DNA of 64,000 nt from Tepidibacter aestuarii (lineage in GTDB: Bacteria > Bacillota > Clostridia > Peptostreptococcales > Peptostreptococcaceae): NCBI RefSeq assembly GCF_934924865.1, contig NZ_OW235315.1, positions 2,852,001 to 2,916,000 of the forward strand. Direction: 5' to 3'. How positions within the stretch are numbered: the stretch's first letter is position 1; each line of letters starts with the position of its first letter. The position numbers and the translations under genes were made by a program. This document shows, piece by piece, positions 50,476 through 61,030 of this stretch. The notes beneath the pieces were generated by a model. That model saw only the letters and a program-made list of their open reading frames with translations, searched no databases and was not told the DNA's origin.

Positions 50476-50541
50476 AATCTAATTAATACTATAAACAACA
50501 ACTACAAAACTAATCATAGTATCATGTTATTTTATTAATTT

Positions 50542-50650
50542 ATCTTCTCCCATCCAGACTTTACTGTCGGTCTTGGAATTTCACCAAGTCAACCACATTG
50601 TGGTTCGTGGACTTTACCACCGGTCGGGAATTTCACCCTGCCCTGAAGAT
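50542..50650 (-). ncRNA. FMN riboswitch (RFN element)
   Basis: On minus the RFN core is clear: CAGGGCAGGGTGAAATTCCC, GACCGGTGGTAAAGTCCACG, GACTTGGTGAAATTCCAAGA, CCGACAGTAAAGTCTGGATG and GGAGAAGATA. It controls ribDEBAH and the HAD gene by FMN-dependent termination. Confidence 0.98.
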
Positions 50651-50818
50651 TTATTTACTTTTTTTTAATTTAACATAAAAAATTAGTTCTGTCAATTCAA
50701 AGCTAATTTTTATATATTTTTGTTCGTTTAATAAATTTTTAATTTATAAATGGTTATAATTTAAATATGAGAAAGTTTTTTATTAAATTTTTAATCTAGA
50801 AAGATTAGGAGGAATACT

Positions 50819-54031: not shown

Positions 54032-54045
54032 GTAATGCTTAAATA

Positions 54046-54399
54046 TTATTTAAAATCTTTTTCGAATTCATCTATTGAATCTTTTAATAGTGTTGCACTG
54101 TAGGCCATGGCAGGTCCTCCACCAAAAGCTACTGATACCATTGCAGCTTCCATAATTTCTTCACGAGTAGCTCCTGCTTCTAAAGCTTTATATGCATGGA
54201 ATACTATGCAATATTCACAACGATTGTAAACTCCAATAGCTACACTTATTAACTCTTTAACTTTTGTATCAAGTTGTCCTGGCTTATAAGCTGCTCCTAA
54301 TAAATTCATGAAAGCGTTTACCTGTTCTCCGTTAGTTTGACCTACATCTTGTAGTCCTCCCATAAATGCATTTAATAGTTCTCTTGGATCTTTTTTCAT
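54046..54399 (-). CDS. AhpD-type (carboxymuconolactone decarboxylase family) peroxidase-like protein, copy A
   Basis: 117 residues, single CMD/AhpD domain. Redox motif CEYCIVFH: Cys61, Cys64 and His68, as in AhpD proteins, where the cysteines react with peroxide or a partner and are reduced by lipoyl proteins. Differs from copy B (59625-59978) at only eight positions. AAAGGAGG precedes the ATG. The promoter contains TTGATT - 17 bases - TATAAT with a 27-bp dyad just downstream, shared with copy B. Between a MarR gene and lpdA in the same direction. Confidence 0.92.
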   Translation of the reverse strand: MKKDPRELLNAFMGGLQDVGQTNGEQVNAFMNLLGAAYKPGQLDTKVKELISVAIGVYNRCEYCIVFHAYKALEAGATREEIMEAAMVSVAFGGGPAMAYSATLLKDSIDEFEKDFK

Positions 54400-54455: not shown

Positions 54456-54525
54456 TTGCATTGCTAATCGTTAGCATAGCAACTATATTTGTCTAAATTA
54501 TAACATCAAGTATTTGATAAATCAA
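54456..54525 (-). promoter_or_regulatory. Promoter and MarR-type operator of ahpD copy A
   Basis: -35 TTGATT (54520-54525), 17-base spacer, -10 TATAAT (54497-54502). A dyad centred at 54469 spans 54456-54482: inner TGCTAA-tcg-TTAGCA, outer TTGC and GCAA. It would cover the transcription start. Same centre and arms as the site before copy B. Confidence 0.8.
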
Positions 54526-54570
54526 TACTTTTATTTATAATTTTACAACCGTATATATTGAGTACCCTAC

Positions 54571-55002: not shown

Positions 55003-55250
55003 TCTACTGCCTCCTAATAATATTTTTCTTTATAGTGTCTGACATTAAGTTTTATTTTATAATAACATATTTTTATTTTCAATACATTCCCATCTTTCTA
55101 TCAAAAGTTTTTATTATTAGATATACCTTACTTATTAATCCATTTTTTACCTAGATTATATACTTCCAATTTTCTCTTAAAAATGTTATTATATAAATTG
55201 TATTAATATAAAATTGAAATGGATTATAATTTTCTATTCATTATAAATTA

Positions 55251-55290
55251 AGACAGTTCGTAACCATCCTGTCTATAAACAAAACTAGGA
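55251..55290 (+). ncRNA. preQ1-I riboswitch
   Basis: GACAG-TTCGTAACCATC-CTGTC hairpin followed by the A-rich TATAAACAAAACTAGGA tail. Pattern matches preQ1 class I: P1 stem, loop with C-rich strand, and an A-rich pseudoknot tail. Controls the downstream queuosine-precursor operon. Confidence 0.88.
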
Positions 55291-55292
55291 CC

Positions 55293-55345
55293 AAATTACC
55301 GTTTAGGTAGTTTTTTTGTTTATGGGGCAGTTATGCCCTTTTTTT
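55293..55345 (+). terminator. Two tandem hairpins with T-runs after the preQ1 aptamer
   Basis: First: AATTACC-gttta-GGTAGTT then seven T (55293-55317). Second: GGGCA-gtta-TGCCC then seven T (55324-55345). The first can compete with the aptamer tail; the second may reinforce attenuation. Confidence 0.75.
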
Positions 55346-55378
55346 GTGTCCTTTTTTATTTTAAGGAGGCTTGACATA

Positions 55379-56377
55379 ATGAAAAAAATAGGTTTAACAA
55401 CTACAGTTCCTGTTGAGATACTTTTAGCAGCAGGATATGCACCAATAGATTTAAATAATCTCTTTATAACTTCTAATGACTATTCCAATTATATTGATAT
55501 AGCAGAAAGAGACGGATTTCCTAAAAGCATGTGTGCATGGATAAAAGGAATCTACGGAGCTTGTATAGAGAATGATATAAAAGAAATAGTTGGAGTTATG
55601 GAAGGGGATTGTTCTAATACTAAAGCTCTTATAGAGGTCTTAGAGTTAAGAGGAATTAAAGTCTACCCTTTTTCATTTCCACACAATCATCAAAAAGAAG
55701 ATGTAAAAAAAGAACTAGATAAGTTTATGGATATTTTTAATGTAAATCTGCAAGAAGTTGAAAAAGTAAGAACTAGATTAAATAAAGTAAGAAAACTAGC
55801 TAAGGAAATTGATAAATTAACATATATAGATAGTAAAGCAAATGGTTTTGAAAATCACCTCTATCAGATAAGTTTAAGTGATTTAAATGGAGATATTGAC
55901 AATTTTGAATCTGAACTTGAAGATGTTATTTCTAATATAGAAAAAAGAACCTCTATAAATAAAAAACTTAGATTAGGATACATTGGTGTTCCTCCTATGA
56001 CTGGTGATATATATGAATTTGTTGAAAACTTTAATGCATCTTTTGTATATAACGAAGTTCAAAGAGAATTTGCTTTTCCAAGAGCAGATAAAGCTTCAAA
56101 TATATATGATCAATATTATGATTACACATATCCATACGATACTGAGTTTAGAATTATAGAATTGAAGAATCAAATTAACGAGAGAAAATTAGATGGAATA
56201 ATTCACTATACGCAGGCTTTTTGTTATAGAGCAGTTGAAGATATTGTATTAAAACAAAAGCTTGATATTCCTATTCTTAATATTGAAGGAGATAAGTTAA
56301 ATACTTTAGATGCTAGAACAAAACTTAGAATCGAAGCTTTTCTTGATATGCTATTGGATTTAAAGGAGGAAAAGTAA
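55379..56377 (+). CDS. 2-hydroxyacyl-CoA dehydratase (HgdB/DCCP)-like iron-sulfur protein in a preQ1 operon
   Basis: 332 residues of the 2-hydroxyacyl-CoA dehydratase D-component superfamily, which includes HgdA/B and double-cubane reductases. Start KKIGLTTTVPVEILLAAGYAPIDLN is diagnostic. Candidate cluster ligands: Cys52, Cys78 and Cys282, with Cys62 extra; their spacing is like that of dehydratase subunits. There is only one subunit, so a homodimer is likely. AAGGAGGC precedes the ATG. It is the first gene after a preQ1 riboswitch, followed without gap by its activator and then queD, queE, folE and queC. A role in deazaguanine reduction is inferred from position alone. Confidence 0.85.
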   Translation: MKKIGLTTTVPVEILLAAGYAPIDLNNLFITSNDYSNYIDIAERDGFPKSMCAWIKGIYGACIENDIKEIVGVMEGDCSNTKALIEVLELRGIKVYPFSFPHNHQKEDVKKELDKFMDIFNVNLQEVEKVRTRLNKVRKLAKEIDKLTYIDSKANGFENHLYQISLSDLNGDIDNFESELEDVISNIEKRTSINKKLRLGYIGVPPMTGDIYEFVENFNASFVYNEVQREFAFPRADKASNIYDQYYDYTYPYDTEFRIIELKNQINERKLDGIIHYTQAFCYRAVEDIVLKQKLDIPILNIEGDKLNTLDARTKLRIEAFLDMLLDLKEEK

Positions 56378-57145
56378 ATGAGAGTTTTAGGTATAGACCT
56401 TGGAAGCCGAGAAGTTAAAATTGCAGTAATGCAAGACAATAACATAATAAAAAAGCTAAAAGTTAGTACAATGTCTTTTTATAGAGACTACTGCAGTTAT
56501 AATGGTAAAGTTATAGTAGATTTAGATAAATTAAATATAGATGATATTGATATAGCTGTGTCTACTGGATACGGTAGAAACAATACTGATTTAAACAAAT
56601 TCACTCCTATAAATGAGATAAAAGCGCATGTTTATGGTGGCTTCTATCAGACAGACTTGAAAGATTTTATACTTTTAGATATAGGTGGTCAAGATGTTAA
56701 AGTTGTCAAAGTTGAAAAAGGAATTACAACAGATTTAGAGCTTAATGAAAAATGTGCTGCTTCATGCGGTAGATATTTAGAGAACATGGCAAATGTACTT
56801 GAAATACCTGTTGATGATATGAGTAAAGAATATGAAAATCCAATAGAACTAAATTCAACATGTGCAGTATTTTCTGAATCTGAGTTAATAGGAAAAATAG
56901 CTGAGGGCGTTAGCATAGAAAGTCTATGTGCAGGAGTTAATTATTCGTTATATAAGAGATTAAATCCCCTTTTGACAAAGTTTAAAGGAAGAAAATTAGT
57001 TTTAACTGGTGGAGTTGCTAATAACGTTGCTATAAAGGAATATTTAAAAAAAGATTATGACGAAATTATATCCGTTAAAGACCCTCAATTTAATGGAGCA
57101 ATCGGGTGCTGTTATTATGGAAGCAAGTTTATCAAAGGAAATTAG
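56378..57145 (+). CDS. Acyl-CoA dehydratase activase-like ATPase (HgdC/BadF family)
   Basis: 255 residues, ASKHA-fold ATPase with phosphate loop GIDLGSREVKIAV, LLDIGGQDVKVV and LTGGVANN. Cys126 (NEKCAASCGRYLE) and Cys162 (NSTCAVFSESEL) match the cysteines that hold one [4Fe-4S] cluster between two monomers in such activators. It hydrolyses ATP to push an electron to very low potential for the partner protein. The ATG directly follows the stop of the dehydratase-like gene. Part of the preQ1-controlled operon. Confidence 0.92.
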   Translation: MRVLGIDLGSREVKIAVMQDNNIIKKLKVSTMSFYRDYCSYNGKVIVDLDKLNIDDIDIAVSTGYGRNNTDLNKFTPINEIKAHVYGGFYQTDLKDFILLDIGGQDVKVVKVEKGITTDLELNEKCAASCGRYLENMANVLEIPVDDMSKEYENPIELNSTCAVFSESELIGKIAEGVSIESLCAGVNYSLYKRLNPLLTKFKGRKLVLTGGVANNVAIKEYLKKDYDEIISVKDPQFNGAIGCCYYGSKFIKGN

Positions 57146-57158
57146 GAGGACGACATTA

Positions 57159-57590
57159 ATGTATATTTTAAAAGCAGAACACAGTTTTGATAGCGCTCAT
57201 TTTCTTGCAAATTACGAAGGAAAATGTAGCAATATTCATGGTCATAGATGGAGAGTAGAAATAGAGGTACAATCAGAGTCATTAATTAATGGTGGACAGT
57301 TAGATGGTATGGTAATAGATTTTGGAGATTTAAAAAAAGATGTTAAAGAAATAGTAGATTACTATGACCATGCCTTAATCATACAAGAAGGTACTATGAG
57401 AAAAGAAACTTTACAATGTCTATCAGAAGACGGATTTAGGATACTAGAAGTTAAATTTAGACCAACAGCAGAAAACTTCTCATTCTTTTTCTTTAATTAT
57501 ATGCAAGAAAAAGGATACAACGTAAAAAGAGCTACTGTTTATGAAACTCCTACTAATAGTGCTACGTATGAAAAATGTGAGGTGAAATAG
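57159..57590 (+). CDS. queD: QueD, 6-carboxytetrahydropterin synthase
   Basis: 143 residues. Zinc-binding His residues in AEHSFDSAHFL and IHGHRWRVE, catalytic Cys in GKCSNIHGH, Asp-His in YYDHALI, and PTAENFSFFFFNYM near the end. Makes CPH4 from dihydroneopterin triphosphate. Start ATG at 57159 after TAGGAGGA; a longer frame overlaps the activator gene and lacks a site. Confidence 0.97.
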   Translation: MYILKAEHSFDSAHFLANYEGKCSNIHGHRWRVEIEVQSESLINGGQLDGMVIDFGDLKKDVKEIVDYYDHALIIQEGTMRKETLQCLSEDGFRILEVKFRPTAENFSFFFFNYMQEKGYNVKRATVYETPTNSATYEKCEVK

Positions 57591-57591
57591 T

Positions 57592-58257
57592 ATGGATTTT
57601 AAAGTGGTTGAAAAATTCGTAAGTATAAATGGAGAAGGTCGTTTATCTGGACAATTAGCAATCTTTATAAGATTTGCAGGATGTAATTTAGACTGCAGCT
57701 ACTGTGATACAAGATGGGCCAACGAAGAAAATGTTGAATACCAATTAATGAATGAACAAGAAATATATGAATATATAAAATCTACTAAGGTTAAAAACGT
57801 TACATTAACAGGCGGTGAACCATTACTTCAAAATGGTCTTATAGGATTATTAGATATACTATCAAAAGATGATGATCTTTCAGTTGAAATAGAAACAAAT
57901 GGTAGTGTGTCTTTAAAAGAATTTATAAATATAAAGAATCCACCTAAATTCACAATGGATTATAAATTACCTTTAAGTAATATGGAACAGAAAATGTTAG
58001 TTGATAATTTTAAATATATAACTAAGAATGATACAGTTAAATTTGTAGCAGGTAGCACCAACGATTTAGAAAAAGCCAAATATATAATTGATAAATATGA
58101 TTTAGTAAATAAAACCAATGTATATATAAGTCCAATATTTAGTAATATTCATATGGCTGATATTGTTGAATTCATGCAAAAGCACACTATGAACGGAGTT
58201 ACTCTACAAGTACAACTTCACAAAATAATATGGGATCCTAATGAAAGAGGTGTATAA
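57592..58257 (+). CDS. queE: QueE, 7-carboxy-7-deazaguanine synthase (radical SAM)
   Basis: 221 residues. Radical SAM cluster motif [10 protein letters not shown], with [20 protein letters not shown] before it and [10 protein letters not shown] after it. Forms the deazapurine ring from CPH4. Starts one base after queD, GTGAGGTG site. Confidence 0.97.
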
Positions 58258-58262
58258 ATCCA

Positions 58263-58850
58263 ATGGACATCAACTTAAAAGAAATCGAAAAACATATACG
58301 AGGAATCTTAATAGCTTTAGGTGAAAATCCAGATAGAGAAGGTCTAAAAGATACTCCTAAACGAGTTGCCAAGATGTACGAAGAGGTATTCAAAGGACAA
58401 GCTTATACAAACCAAGAAATTGCCGAGATGTTTGGTAAAACATTTGAAGATGATTTGAGTATAGATCAAGATAATAAAGATATGGTTTTTATGAAGAATA
58501 TTGAAATTTTCAGTCATTGCGAACATCATTTAGCTTTAATGTACAATATGAAAGTAGCAGTTGCATATATTCCAAAAGATAAAGTTATTGGACTTAGTAA
58601 AATTGCTAGAATTGCAGATCTTGTTGGACGAAGATTACAGCTCCAGGAAAGAATTGGAACGGATATAGCTGAGATCATACAAATCATAACTGACTCTGAT
58701 GATGTAGCAGTTATAATTGAAGGTGAACATGGATGTATGACAACTAGAGGTATAAAGAAAACTAATGCACAAACAGTTACAACTACATTAAGAGGAAAAT
58801 TTAAAACTGATCCAACTTTACAAAACACTCTAATGATGATGTATAAATAG
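58263..58850 (+). CDS. folE: GTP cyclohydrolase I FolE
   Basis: 195 residues. Zinc and catalytic residues in [32 protein letters not shown] and [11 protein letters not shown]. First step towards both folate and queuosine; its place in this operon dedicates it to queuosine. Ends five bases after the usual GTPCH length. Confidence 0.97.
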
Positions 58851-58875
58851 TATAAAGAAAGGTAAGGTATTTTAT

Positions 58876-59544
58876 ATGAATATAGAAGTAAATAAAGACA
58901 GAGCTGTAGTAGTATTTAGTGGTGGTCAAGATAGTACTACTTGCTTATTCTGGGCAAAGAAGAAATTTAAAGAAGTTATTGCAGTATCATTTGATTATGG
59001 TCAAAAACATAAATTAGAGTTAGAATGTGCCAGAGATATCTGTAAAAAATATAATGTAGAACATCATTGTTTAGATTTAAATTTATTAAATCAATTAGCT
59101 CCAAATTCTTTAACAAGAACAGATATAGAGGTAGATAAAGATTCTCCTACAGAGGGTACTCCCAATTCATTTGTAGATGGAAGAAATTTATTATTTTTAT
59201 CTTTCGTTGCAATATTTGCAAAGCAAAAAGGAGCAAATCATATTATAACTGGTGTATCTCAAAGTGATTTTAGTGGATATCCTGACTGTAGAGATGTATT
59301 TATAAAATCTTTAAACGTTACATTGAATCTATCTATGGATTTTCAATTTGTAATTCATACTCCATTAATGTGGATTGATAAAGCTGAGACTTGGAAAATG
59401 GCAGATGATTTAGGTATACTTGATATAGTTAAAAACGAAACTTTAACGTGCTACAATGGAATTAAAGGAAATGGATGCGGAGATTGTCCTGCATGTAAAT
59501 TAAGAAAAAATGGGTATTTAGAGTTTAAAAAATTATATAAATAA
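58876..59544 (+). CDS. queC: QueC, 7-cyano-7-deazaguanine (preQ0) synthase
   Basis: 222 residues. PP-loop SGGQDSTT, then [13 protein letters not shown], and the zinc knuckle [14 protein letters not shown]. Converts CDG to preQ0 with ATP and ammonia. Last gene of the operon. Its 3' 138 bases are duplicated at 60893-61030 with seven mismatches. Confidence 0.97.
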
Positions 59545-59618: not shown

Positions 59619-59624
59619 AGAATA

Positions 59625-59978
59625 TTATTTGAAATCTTTTTCAAATTCATCTATTGAATCTTTTAATAGTGTTGCACTGTATGCCATTGTAGGTCCCCCA
59701 CCAAAAGCTACTGATACCATTGCAGCTTCCATAATTTCTTCACGATTAGCTCCTGCTTCTAAAGCTTTATATGCATGGAACACTATGCAGTATTCACAAC
59801 GATTATAGACTCCAATAGCTACACTTATTAACTCTTTAGTTTTTGTATCAAGTTTTCCTGGTTTATAAGCTGCTCCTAATAAGCTCATAAAAGAGTTTAC
59901 TTGTTCTCCATTAGTTTGACTTACATCTTGTAATCCTCCCATAAATGCATTTAACATTTCTCTTGGATCTTTTTTCAT
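59625..59978 (-). CDS. AhpD-type peroxidase-like protein, copy B
   Basis: 117 residues, 109 identical to copy A; motif CEYCIVFH (Cys61, Cys64, His68) intact. Differences are mostly conservative (such as G20S, Q42K, T78N). Same promoter architecture and operator dyad as copy A. Divergent from the lipoprotein OsmC gene, with which it may share induction. The two copies suggest a recent duplication with promoter included. Confidence 0.92.
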   Translation of the reverse strand: MKKDPREMLNAFMGGLQDVSQTNGEQVNSFMSLLGAAYKPGKLDTKTKELISVAIGVYNRCEYCIVFHAYKALEAGANREEIMEAAMVSVAFGGGPTMAYSATLLKDSIDEFEKDFK

Positions 59979-60014: not shown

Positions 60015-60083
60015 TTGTTATGCTAATCGTGCGCATAGCAACTTTTTTGTTTAAATTATAACACCAAAATTCTAATAAATCAA
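60015..60083 (-). promoter_or_regulatory. Promoter and MarR-type operator of ahpD copy B
   Basis: -35 TTGATT (60078-60083), 17-base spacer, -10 TATAAT (60055-60060). Dyad at 60015-60041 centred on 60028: TTGTTATGC and GCATAGCAA. The centre and spacing to -10 match the site of copy A. Confidence 0.8.
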
Positions 60084-60132
60084 TACTTTTATTCAATATT
60101 TTAACTTTGTAAATTTGCTTATAAATAACCTA

Positions 60133-60892: not shown

Positions 60893-61030
60893 AGATAATT
60901 TAGGGATACTTGATATAGTTAAAAACAAAACTTTAACGTGCTACAATGGAATTAAAGGAAATGGATGTGGAGATTGCCCTGCATGTAAATTAATAAAAAA
61001 TGGGTATTTAGAGTTAAAAAAATTATATAA
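60893..61030 (+). pseudogene. Duplicated 3' end of queC
   Basis: 138 bases match 59403-59540 at 131 positions and would encode [20 protein letters not shown] and the zinc knuckle [12 protein letters not shown]. No start codon or ribosome site; it follows a terminator, so it is silent. Together the two copies flank ahpD copy B and osmC as direct repeats. Confidence 0.9.

Follow-up and report, generated by a model that had tools for sequence, protein, structure and literature searches.

How does a bacterium that carries the genes for making 7-cyano-7-deazaguanine (preQ0) reach preQ1 if it has no QueF? The question is raised by a queuosine operon in a 64,000-nucleotide stretch of the Tepidibacter aestuarii genome (contig NZ_OW235315.1, positions 2,852,001 to 2,916,000 of the forward strand), referred to here as the window. 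On the + strand, the operon runs from a preQ1-I riboswitch aptamer through a gene for a protein of the HGD-D fold and a gene for an activator ATPase (together, the pair) to queD, queE, folE and queC. An earlier note on this DNA, made from the letters alone, had described this order with gaps of 0–26 bases. Profile searches recovered the same order, each gene scoring over its cut-off (Table 1), and the successive gaps measure 0, 13, 1, 5 and 25 bases. The evidence set out below indicates that the HGD-D protein and its activator very probably constitute an ATP-driven [4Fe-4S] preQ0 nitrile reductase, a non-homologous replacement for QueF.

Queuosine genes in genomes that carry the pair

The earlier note had described the operon as lacking queF and had proposed a genome search for it. 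We found no QueF in the whole T. aestuarii genome (3,666,533 bases in two contigs; completeness score 100%, contamination 4.73%), and the same search detected QueF in 8 of 14 controls, including B. subtilis and E. coli. QueG, QueA and TGT are present above their cut-offs. Because queD, queE, folE, queC, QueA, TGT and QueG are all there and QueF is not, the conversion of preQ0 to preQ1 is, judged by gene content, the sole step between GTP and queuosine-tRNA that has no assigned enzyme in this organism.

To see how the pair and QueF are distributed we used a class sample of 293 Clostridia genomes, each from a different species and with a completeness of at least 90 requested. The HGD-D protein was scored as present at E<=1e-30, QueF at E<1e-30 and QueC at its curated cut-off. 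The HGD-D protein occurs in 23 genomes, as a single copy in each (the match in genome G051 falls in two pieces), QueF in 36 and QueC in 46. Every one of the 46 QueC genomes has either the pair (21) or QueF (25), with none carrying both and none carrying neither (P = 1.4e-13; this and the other exclusion P values treat genomes as independent and ignore relatedness). Two pair genomes (G049, G253) and 11 QueF genomes have no QueC above the cut-off. QueA is present in all 59 class-sample genomes with the pair or QueF, and TGT, which was searched for in pair genomes only, in 23 of 23.

The same exclusion is seen at closer range. Among 178 Clostridiaceae (completeness of at least 95 requested; partly shared with the class sample), 49 have the pair, 49 have QueF and none has both, against 13.5 expected (P = 5.5e-9). 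An anti-correlation between the pair and queF across clostridial genomes, which the earlier note had named as a check on its idea, is thus present in both samples with zero overlap. Five genera (g46, g63, g130, g187 and g200) contain pair species as well as QueF species, so that exchange of one for the other seems to have happened repeatedly. We also inspected 80 named loci, the best 80 of 518 relative-encoding stretches from 545 genome-collection stretches scanned. No real QueF was found in the 50 of these 80 pair genomes that were searched, two weak matches there being FolE.

Weak matches to the QueF profile (20–32 bits) were the sole matches in 19 of the 55 matching class-sample genomes, five of them above the curated cut-off. 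These were rejected as QueF: eight of them were checked individually, namely the five above the cut-off, one more from the class sample and two from the named genomes, and in each of these eight the best match was FolE at 38–48% identity. QueF has a tunnelling fold that it shares with FolE, and the weak FolE matches to its profile agree with this.

The pair is found with preQ1 riboswitches, que genes and precursor transporters

The preQ1-I riboswitch described in the earlier note finds support, at a modest score. The window aptamer, matched at 55248-55294, reaches 26.0 bits with RF00522, under the gathering score of 39, so that a search at the gathering threshold misses it; it is the sole RF00522 match at E<=0.1 across the 3.67-Mb genome. 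Because of this miss we built R2, a covariance model from 22 aligned leaders of pair and queF units, which scores the window aptamer at 70.5 bits, the window sequence being within its training set. The stem, loop and A-rich tail are shared by 21 of the 22 leaders, the stem of L051 deviating. With R2, whose scores are not independent since its training included some of the tested loci, the same core is found before the pair at 75 of the 80 named loci (at most about 400 bases upstream, same strand). It is missing at L073 and L103, both cut short at a contig end, and at L106, L126 and L130. When the search is confined to 300 bases and to a strict text motif, an aptamer is found at 53 of the 80. 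In the class sample, R2 finds it at 14 of 23 pair loci and at 9 of the 11 QueF loci examined, and RF00522 with strict filters at E<=0.1, which is independent of R2, puts it immediately in front of the pair in 8 of the 23 genomes.

The rest of the neighbourhood is conserved as well. The activator gene adjoins the HGD-D gene at every one of the 80 named loci, 64 of which have que genes downstream of the pair on the same strand. The pair is joined to two types of cluster: queD-E-(folE)-C, with a QueC 67–97% identical to that of the window, and queC-D-E, with a QueC only 32–39% identical to it. In genomes G128, G225, G146 and G214 a queD-E-folE-C operon ends in queF and has no pair; in the window and its relatives the pair leads the operon. 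At three loci (L079, L081, L101) the operon is split, the pair and queD-E-folE-C each standing under a preQ1 aptamer of its own, and in Propionigenium maris a VanZ-like gene (L114, 8754-9281) lies between the pair and queD.

At 16 named loci the pair had no que gene in view next to it. An aptamer is present in 15 of these (one of them, L131, on a contig that ends just past the pair), and in 8 of the 16 the next forward gene belongs to a precursor-transporter family. This gene encodes QueT (PF06177) at L109, L112, L123, L124, L132 and L134 and a PF02592 protein at L111 and L113; PF02592 is the YhhQ/QPTR family (excerpts of PMC11130926). Ruminiclostridium hungatei (G253, L134), which has no QueC above the cut-off, has kept the arrangement riboswitch-pair-QueT. 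The corresponding arrangement riboswitch-QueT-queF occurs at four QueF loci without adjoining que genes (L049, L050, L051, L053), and three of the 11 QueC-less QueF genomes (G002, G094, G275) have riboswitch-queT-queF. The pair therefore behaves like queF, since it adjoins either the genes that make preQ0 or a transporter.

A putative iron-sulfur protein and its activator, unrelated to QueF

The HGD-D protein scores above the gathering score of PF06050 and has the three-domain, catalytic-subunit fold by prediction, which places it in that superfamily. Its partner exceeds the TIGR00241 activase cut-off and matches the structures of HadI (4eht) and HgdC (1hux). Neither protein contains a QueF domain (PF14489), and profile searches reported no QueG or QueH domain in either. 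Among the 19 of 23 class-sample orthologues that were aligned, C52, C78 and C282 are the only invariant cysteines of the HGD-D protein, and the activator keeps Cys126 and Cys162 without exception; these are the five cysteines that the earlier note had singled out. C52, C78 and C282 align with cysteines of HadC and DCCP. Given that only three cysteines are invariant, the sequences suggest that the HGD-D protein carries one [4Fe-4S] cluster, a cubane and not a double cubane. In G051 the HGD-D protein (L046, 8001-9188, - strand) is interrupted by an extra in-frame stretch of about 38 residues.

The earlier note had assigned the protein to the dehydratase/double-cubane family. The likeness of fold stands, and the double cubane falls with the three-cysteine pattern. 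We rejected identity with DCCP since the window protein scores 56.6 with NF040772 against a cut-off of 350, and the extra DCCP cysteines have no counterparts, being opposite gaps or other residues. In BzdN, by comparison, the double cubane is an [8Fe-9S] cluster with six-thiolate ligation (excerpts of PMC11971306).

The pair also differs from its characterised relatives in subunit make-up. A tblastn search with the window protein gave one HGD-D match at each of the 80 named loci, and no second HGD-D subunit was found in these stretches of at most 15 kb, from which a very divergent subunit would escape. The two different subunits of a functional 2-hydroxyacyl-CoA dehydratase are thus not what these loci encode. 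HadBC, the partner of HadI, is a heterodimer that acts on acyl-CoA (excerpts of PMC11971306), whereas the pair has a single HGD-D gene linked to queuosine genes. The class I benzoyl-CoA reductases BzdNO and MbdON likewise have two different subunits and, unlike the pair, an aromatic acyl-CoA substrate (excerpts of PMC11971306).

Compared with QueF (PF14489), the pair shares the proposed step and the settings (preQ1 riboswitch, que operon, QueT), and the two were never found in one genome in either sample. QueF works with a catalytic cysteine and NADPH (abstract of PMC5372742); the pair, in contrast, would be an Fe-S and ATP system of a different fold.

A model for preQ0 reduction by the pair

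These data allow us to propose how the pair may act. The proposal is founded on gene content, the exclusion of QueF, the riboswitch and transporter context, the predicted fold and the conserved cysteines, from which we infer the substrate, the ATP-driven electron path, the cluster type, the homodimer, the stepwise mechanism and the direction of the switch. Overall, the nitrile of preQ0 would be reduced to the aminomethyl group of preQ1 with four electrons and four protons. An activator dimer would bridge one [4Fe-4S] cluster, be loaded by a low-potential electron donor and pass single electrons to the HGD-D protein, driven by ATP. The HGD-D protein would probably be a homodimer, with a [4Fe-4S] cluster held by Cys52, Cys78 and Cys282 and one iron left open. 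We envisage preQ0 beside or on this iron, where its C-N triple bond would be reduced stepwise via an imine. The preQ1 formed would feed TGT and, through the preQ1 riboswitch, also switch the operon off; the leader, with a terminator-like site downstream of the aptamer, is accordingly read as a putative transcriptional OFF switch. The superfamily performs ATP-driven one-electron reductions, and since DCCP reduces acetylene, hydrazine and azide, small multiple bonds lie within its chemistry (excerpts of PMC11971306).

Together these data support the suggestion, made in the earlier note, that the pair replaces QueF: the genome has no QueF, two samples have zero overlap, and neighbourhood and riboswitch are conserved. 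That note had also named a combination that would speak against it, QueF with QueG or QueH in this genome and no conserved neighbourhood elsewhere; we found QueG present, QueF absent and the neighbourhood conserved.

Several points weigh against preQ0 reduction by the pair. Spending ATP seems expensive when QueF carries out this step with NADPH. Nitrile reduction by the HGD-D superfamily is unmentioned in the superfamily literature consulted (excerpts of PMC11971306), and DCCP, the relative that reduces small multiple bonds, has a double cubane that the HGD-D protein seems to lack. QueT-type transporters can carry preQ1 (excerpts of PMC11130926), so that linkage to a transporter is in itself no proof of preQ0 as substrate. 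In three genomes of family f24 (G019, G049, G118) the pair lies away from que genes, and of the 23 loci in the class sample, nine in families f24 and f51 (L037-L045) yielded no preQ1-I aptamer, L040 having less than 200 bases upstream. Across all 293 genomes the zero overlap of the pair and QueF is weak when taken alone (2.8 expected, P = 0.043), and G277 has a QueC-like match of 90.6 bits, below the cut-off, with neither QueF nor the pair.

Alternative roles

The pair might instead act on another deazaguanine or salvage compound, as the earlier note had also considered, with preQ1 made by a route that bypasses preQ0 reduction. The genes of the QueT and YhhQ families that adjoin the pair at some loci would fit this, given the several precursors that proteins of these families transport (excerpts of PMC11130926). 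We nevertheless judge it unlikely. QueC is above its cut-off in 21 of 23 pair genomes, which should therefore make preQ0, and the presence of QueF or the pair in 46 of 46 QueC genomes points to the product of QueC.

A role confined to feeding low-potential electrons to, or activating, an unrecognised preQ0 reductase encoded elsewhere is very unlikely in our estimation. Activators of this family do push electrons into partner proteins, and a single HGD-D gene at each of 80 loci is unlike the two different subunits of HadBC and BzdNO. Among the loci inspected, however, no third gene is common to the que-linked, transporter-linked and lone pairs, and the HGD-D protein itself has a predicted catalytic-subunit fold.

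The location in a queuosine operon and membership of a reductase superfamily could also suit an alternative epoxyqueuosine reductase acting at the last step in place of QueG or QueH, the other proposal of the earlier note. We reject this role as highly improbable because each of the 23 class-sample pair genomes already has one, and no more than one, of these two enzymes (QueG over its cut-off in 14, QueH in 9), and it would leave the exclusion of QueF unexplained. Finally, family names and fold would allow an ordinary 2-hydroxyacyl-CoA dehydratase lying in the operon by chance, a reading that is scarcely credible in view of the riboswitch linkage at 75 of 80 loci, lone pairs included, the two types of adjoining que operon, the exclusion with QueF and the one HGD-D subunit in place of two different ones. 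Reduction of preQ0 in place of QueF is the reading that we retain.

Spread of the pair

The HGD-D protein has 4761 relatives at E<=1e-20, and the 120 listed among them are 77–92% identical to it. The best 80 loci are mostly from Clostridia, with five from Halobacteroidaceae and three from Fusobacteriota. In the tree of HGD-D proteins the nearest named row to the window protein is Tepidibacter mesophilus (89% identity). The Fusobacteriota rows are placed among Clostridia rows, a position that is suggestive of transfer. Contig L077, whose title names Lutibacter sp. B2 (Bacteroidota), encodes an HGD-D protein 81% identical to that of the window and nested among Tepidibacter, Oceanirhabdus and Clostridium; it is probably a mislabelled clostridial contig.

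A deeper branch (L036-L045, 48–52% identity) is que-linked in families f4 (L036, with an aptamer) and f51, and includes the three f24 pairs away from que genes. At these f24 loci (L038, L040, L045) there are no que neighbours and no preQ1-I aptamer was found; the neighbours of the pair at L038 are histidine kinase, response regulator and aminopeptidase genes.

Features of the operon and its surroundings

The coordinates of the operon are collected in Table 1. The consensus scan gave four promoter-like sites over the two strands, where shuffled sequence would give 2.7, which makes the one upstream of the aptamer weak evidence. The leader sequence from 55248 to 55345 folds with a z of -4.15.

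Table 1. The T. aestuarii operon: features, positions in the window and supporting scores
Feature	Position	Strand	Details
Promoter-like site TTAATA-16-TATAAT	55203-55230	+	consensus scan 10/12
preQ1-I aptamer	55248-55295	+	stem GACAG/CTGTC, loop, A-rich tail; AAAACTAGG
Intrinsic-terminator-like site, putative expression platform	55324-55346	+	1 found vs 0.1 expected
HGD-D-fold reductase gene (putative)	55379-56377	+	332 amino acids; PF06050 134 bits vs cut-off 28.4
Proposed cluster-ligand codons of the HGD-D protein	Cys52 55532-55534; Cys78 55610-55612; Cys282 56222-56224	+	
Activator ATPase gene (HgdC/HadI type)	56378-57145	+	255 amino acids; TIGR00241 164.5 bits vs cut-off 125.4
Proposed [4Fe-4S]-ligand codons of the activator	Cys126 56753-56755; Cys162 56861-56863	+	
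queD, 6-carboxytetrahydropterin synthase	57159-57590	+	TIGR03367 97.9 vs cut-off 89.25
queE, 7-carboxy-7-deazaguanine synthase	57592-58257	+	TIGR03963 347 vs cut-off 260
folE, GTP cyclohydrolase I	58263-58850	+	TIGR00063 194 vs cut-off 181.6
queC, 7-cyano-7-deazaguanine (preQ0) synthase	58876-59544	+	TIGR00364 275 vs cut-off 150

The operon is bracketed by two near-identical genes of the carboxymuconolactone-decarboxylase family (54042-54341 and 59621-59920; 93% over 300 nt) and by a second, shorter repeat (54488-54545 and 60046-60103; 83% over 58 nt). The copies of both repeats are about 5.57 kb apart, as if the region had once been duplicated or had recombined. Downstream of an OsmC-like gene lies a queC remnant (60893-61030), a 138-nt copy of the 3' end of queC at 95% identity. 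The sole Rfam match above its gathering score in the window is an FMN riboswitch at 50538-50654 on the - strand (123.7 bits).

Implications

Among the publications listed by a literature search that had most subscription papers and annotation databases outside its reach, we found none linking the pair, or a 2-hydroxyacyl-CoA dehydratase, with queuosine or preQ1. To our knowledge, QueF is the only nitrile reductase known in primary metabolism. It is likely that the pair, as a two-component ATP-driven [4Fe-4S] radical reductase, represents a second, unrelated biological solution to the conversion of a nitrile to a primary amine, present in Clostridia, Halobacteroidaceae and Fusobacteriota, and, as far as we know, the first enzyme of the 2-hydroxyacyl-CoA dehydratase/benzoyl-CoA reductase fold to act on a nucleobase in tRNA-modification metabolism. 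QueF is required in the rule for de novo queuosine synthesis in Table 1 of PMC6593275 (seen as excerpts). Because reconstructions that require QueF do not count the pair, bacteria that depend on the pair could be misread as having no way to make preQ1.

How relevant the reactions of double-cubane proteins are physiologically is still unclear (excerpts of PMC11971306). If our proposal is true, the 2-hydroxyacyl-CoA dehydratase/benzoyl-CoA reductase/double-cubane superfamily would gain a new reaction and offer a possible biocatalyst for nitriles, and many clostridia and their relatives without QueF would possess a biological nitrile reductase of a novel type.

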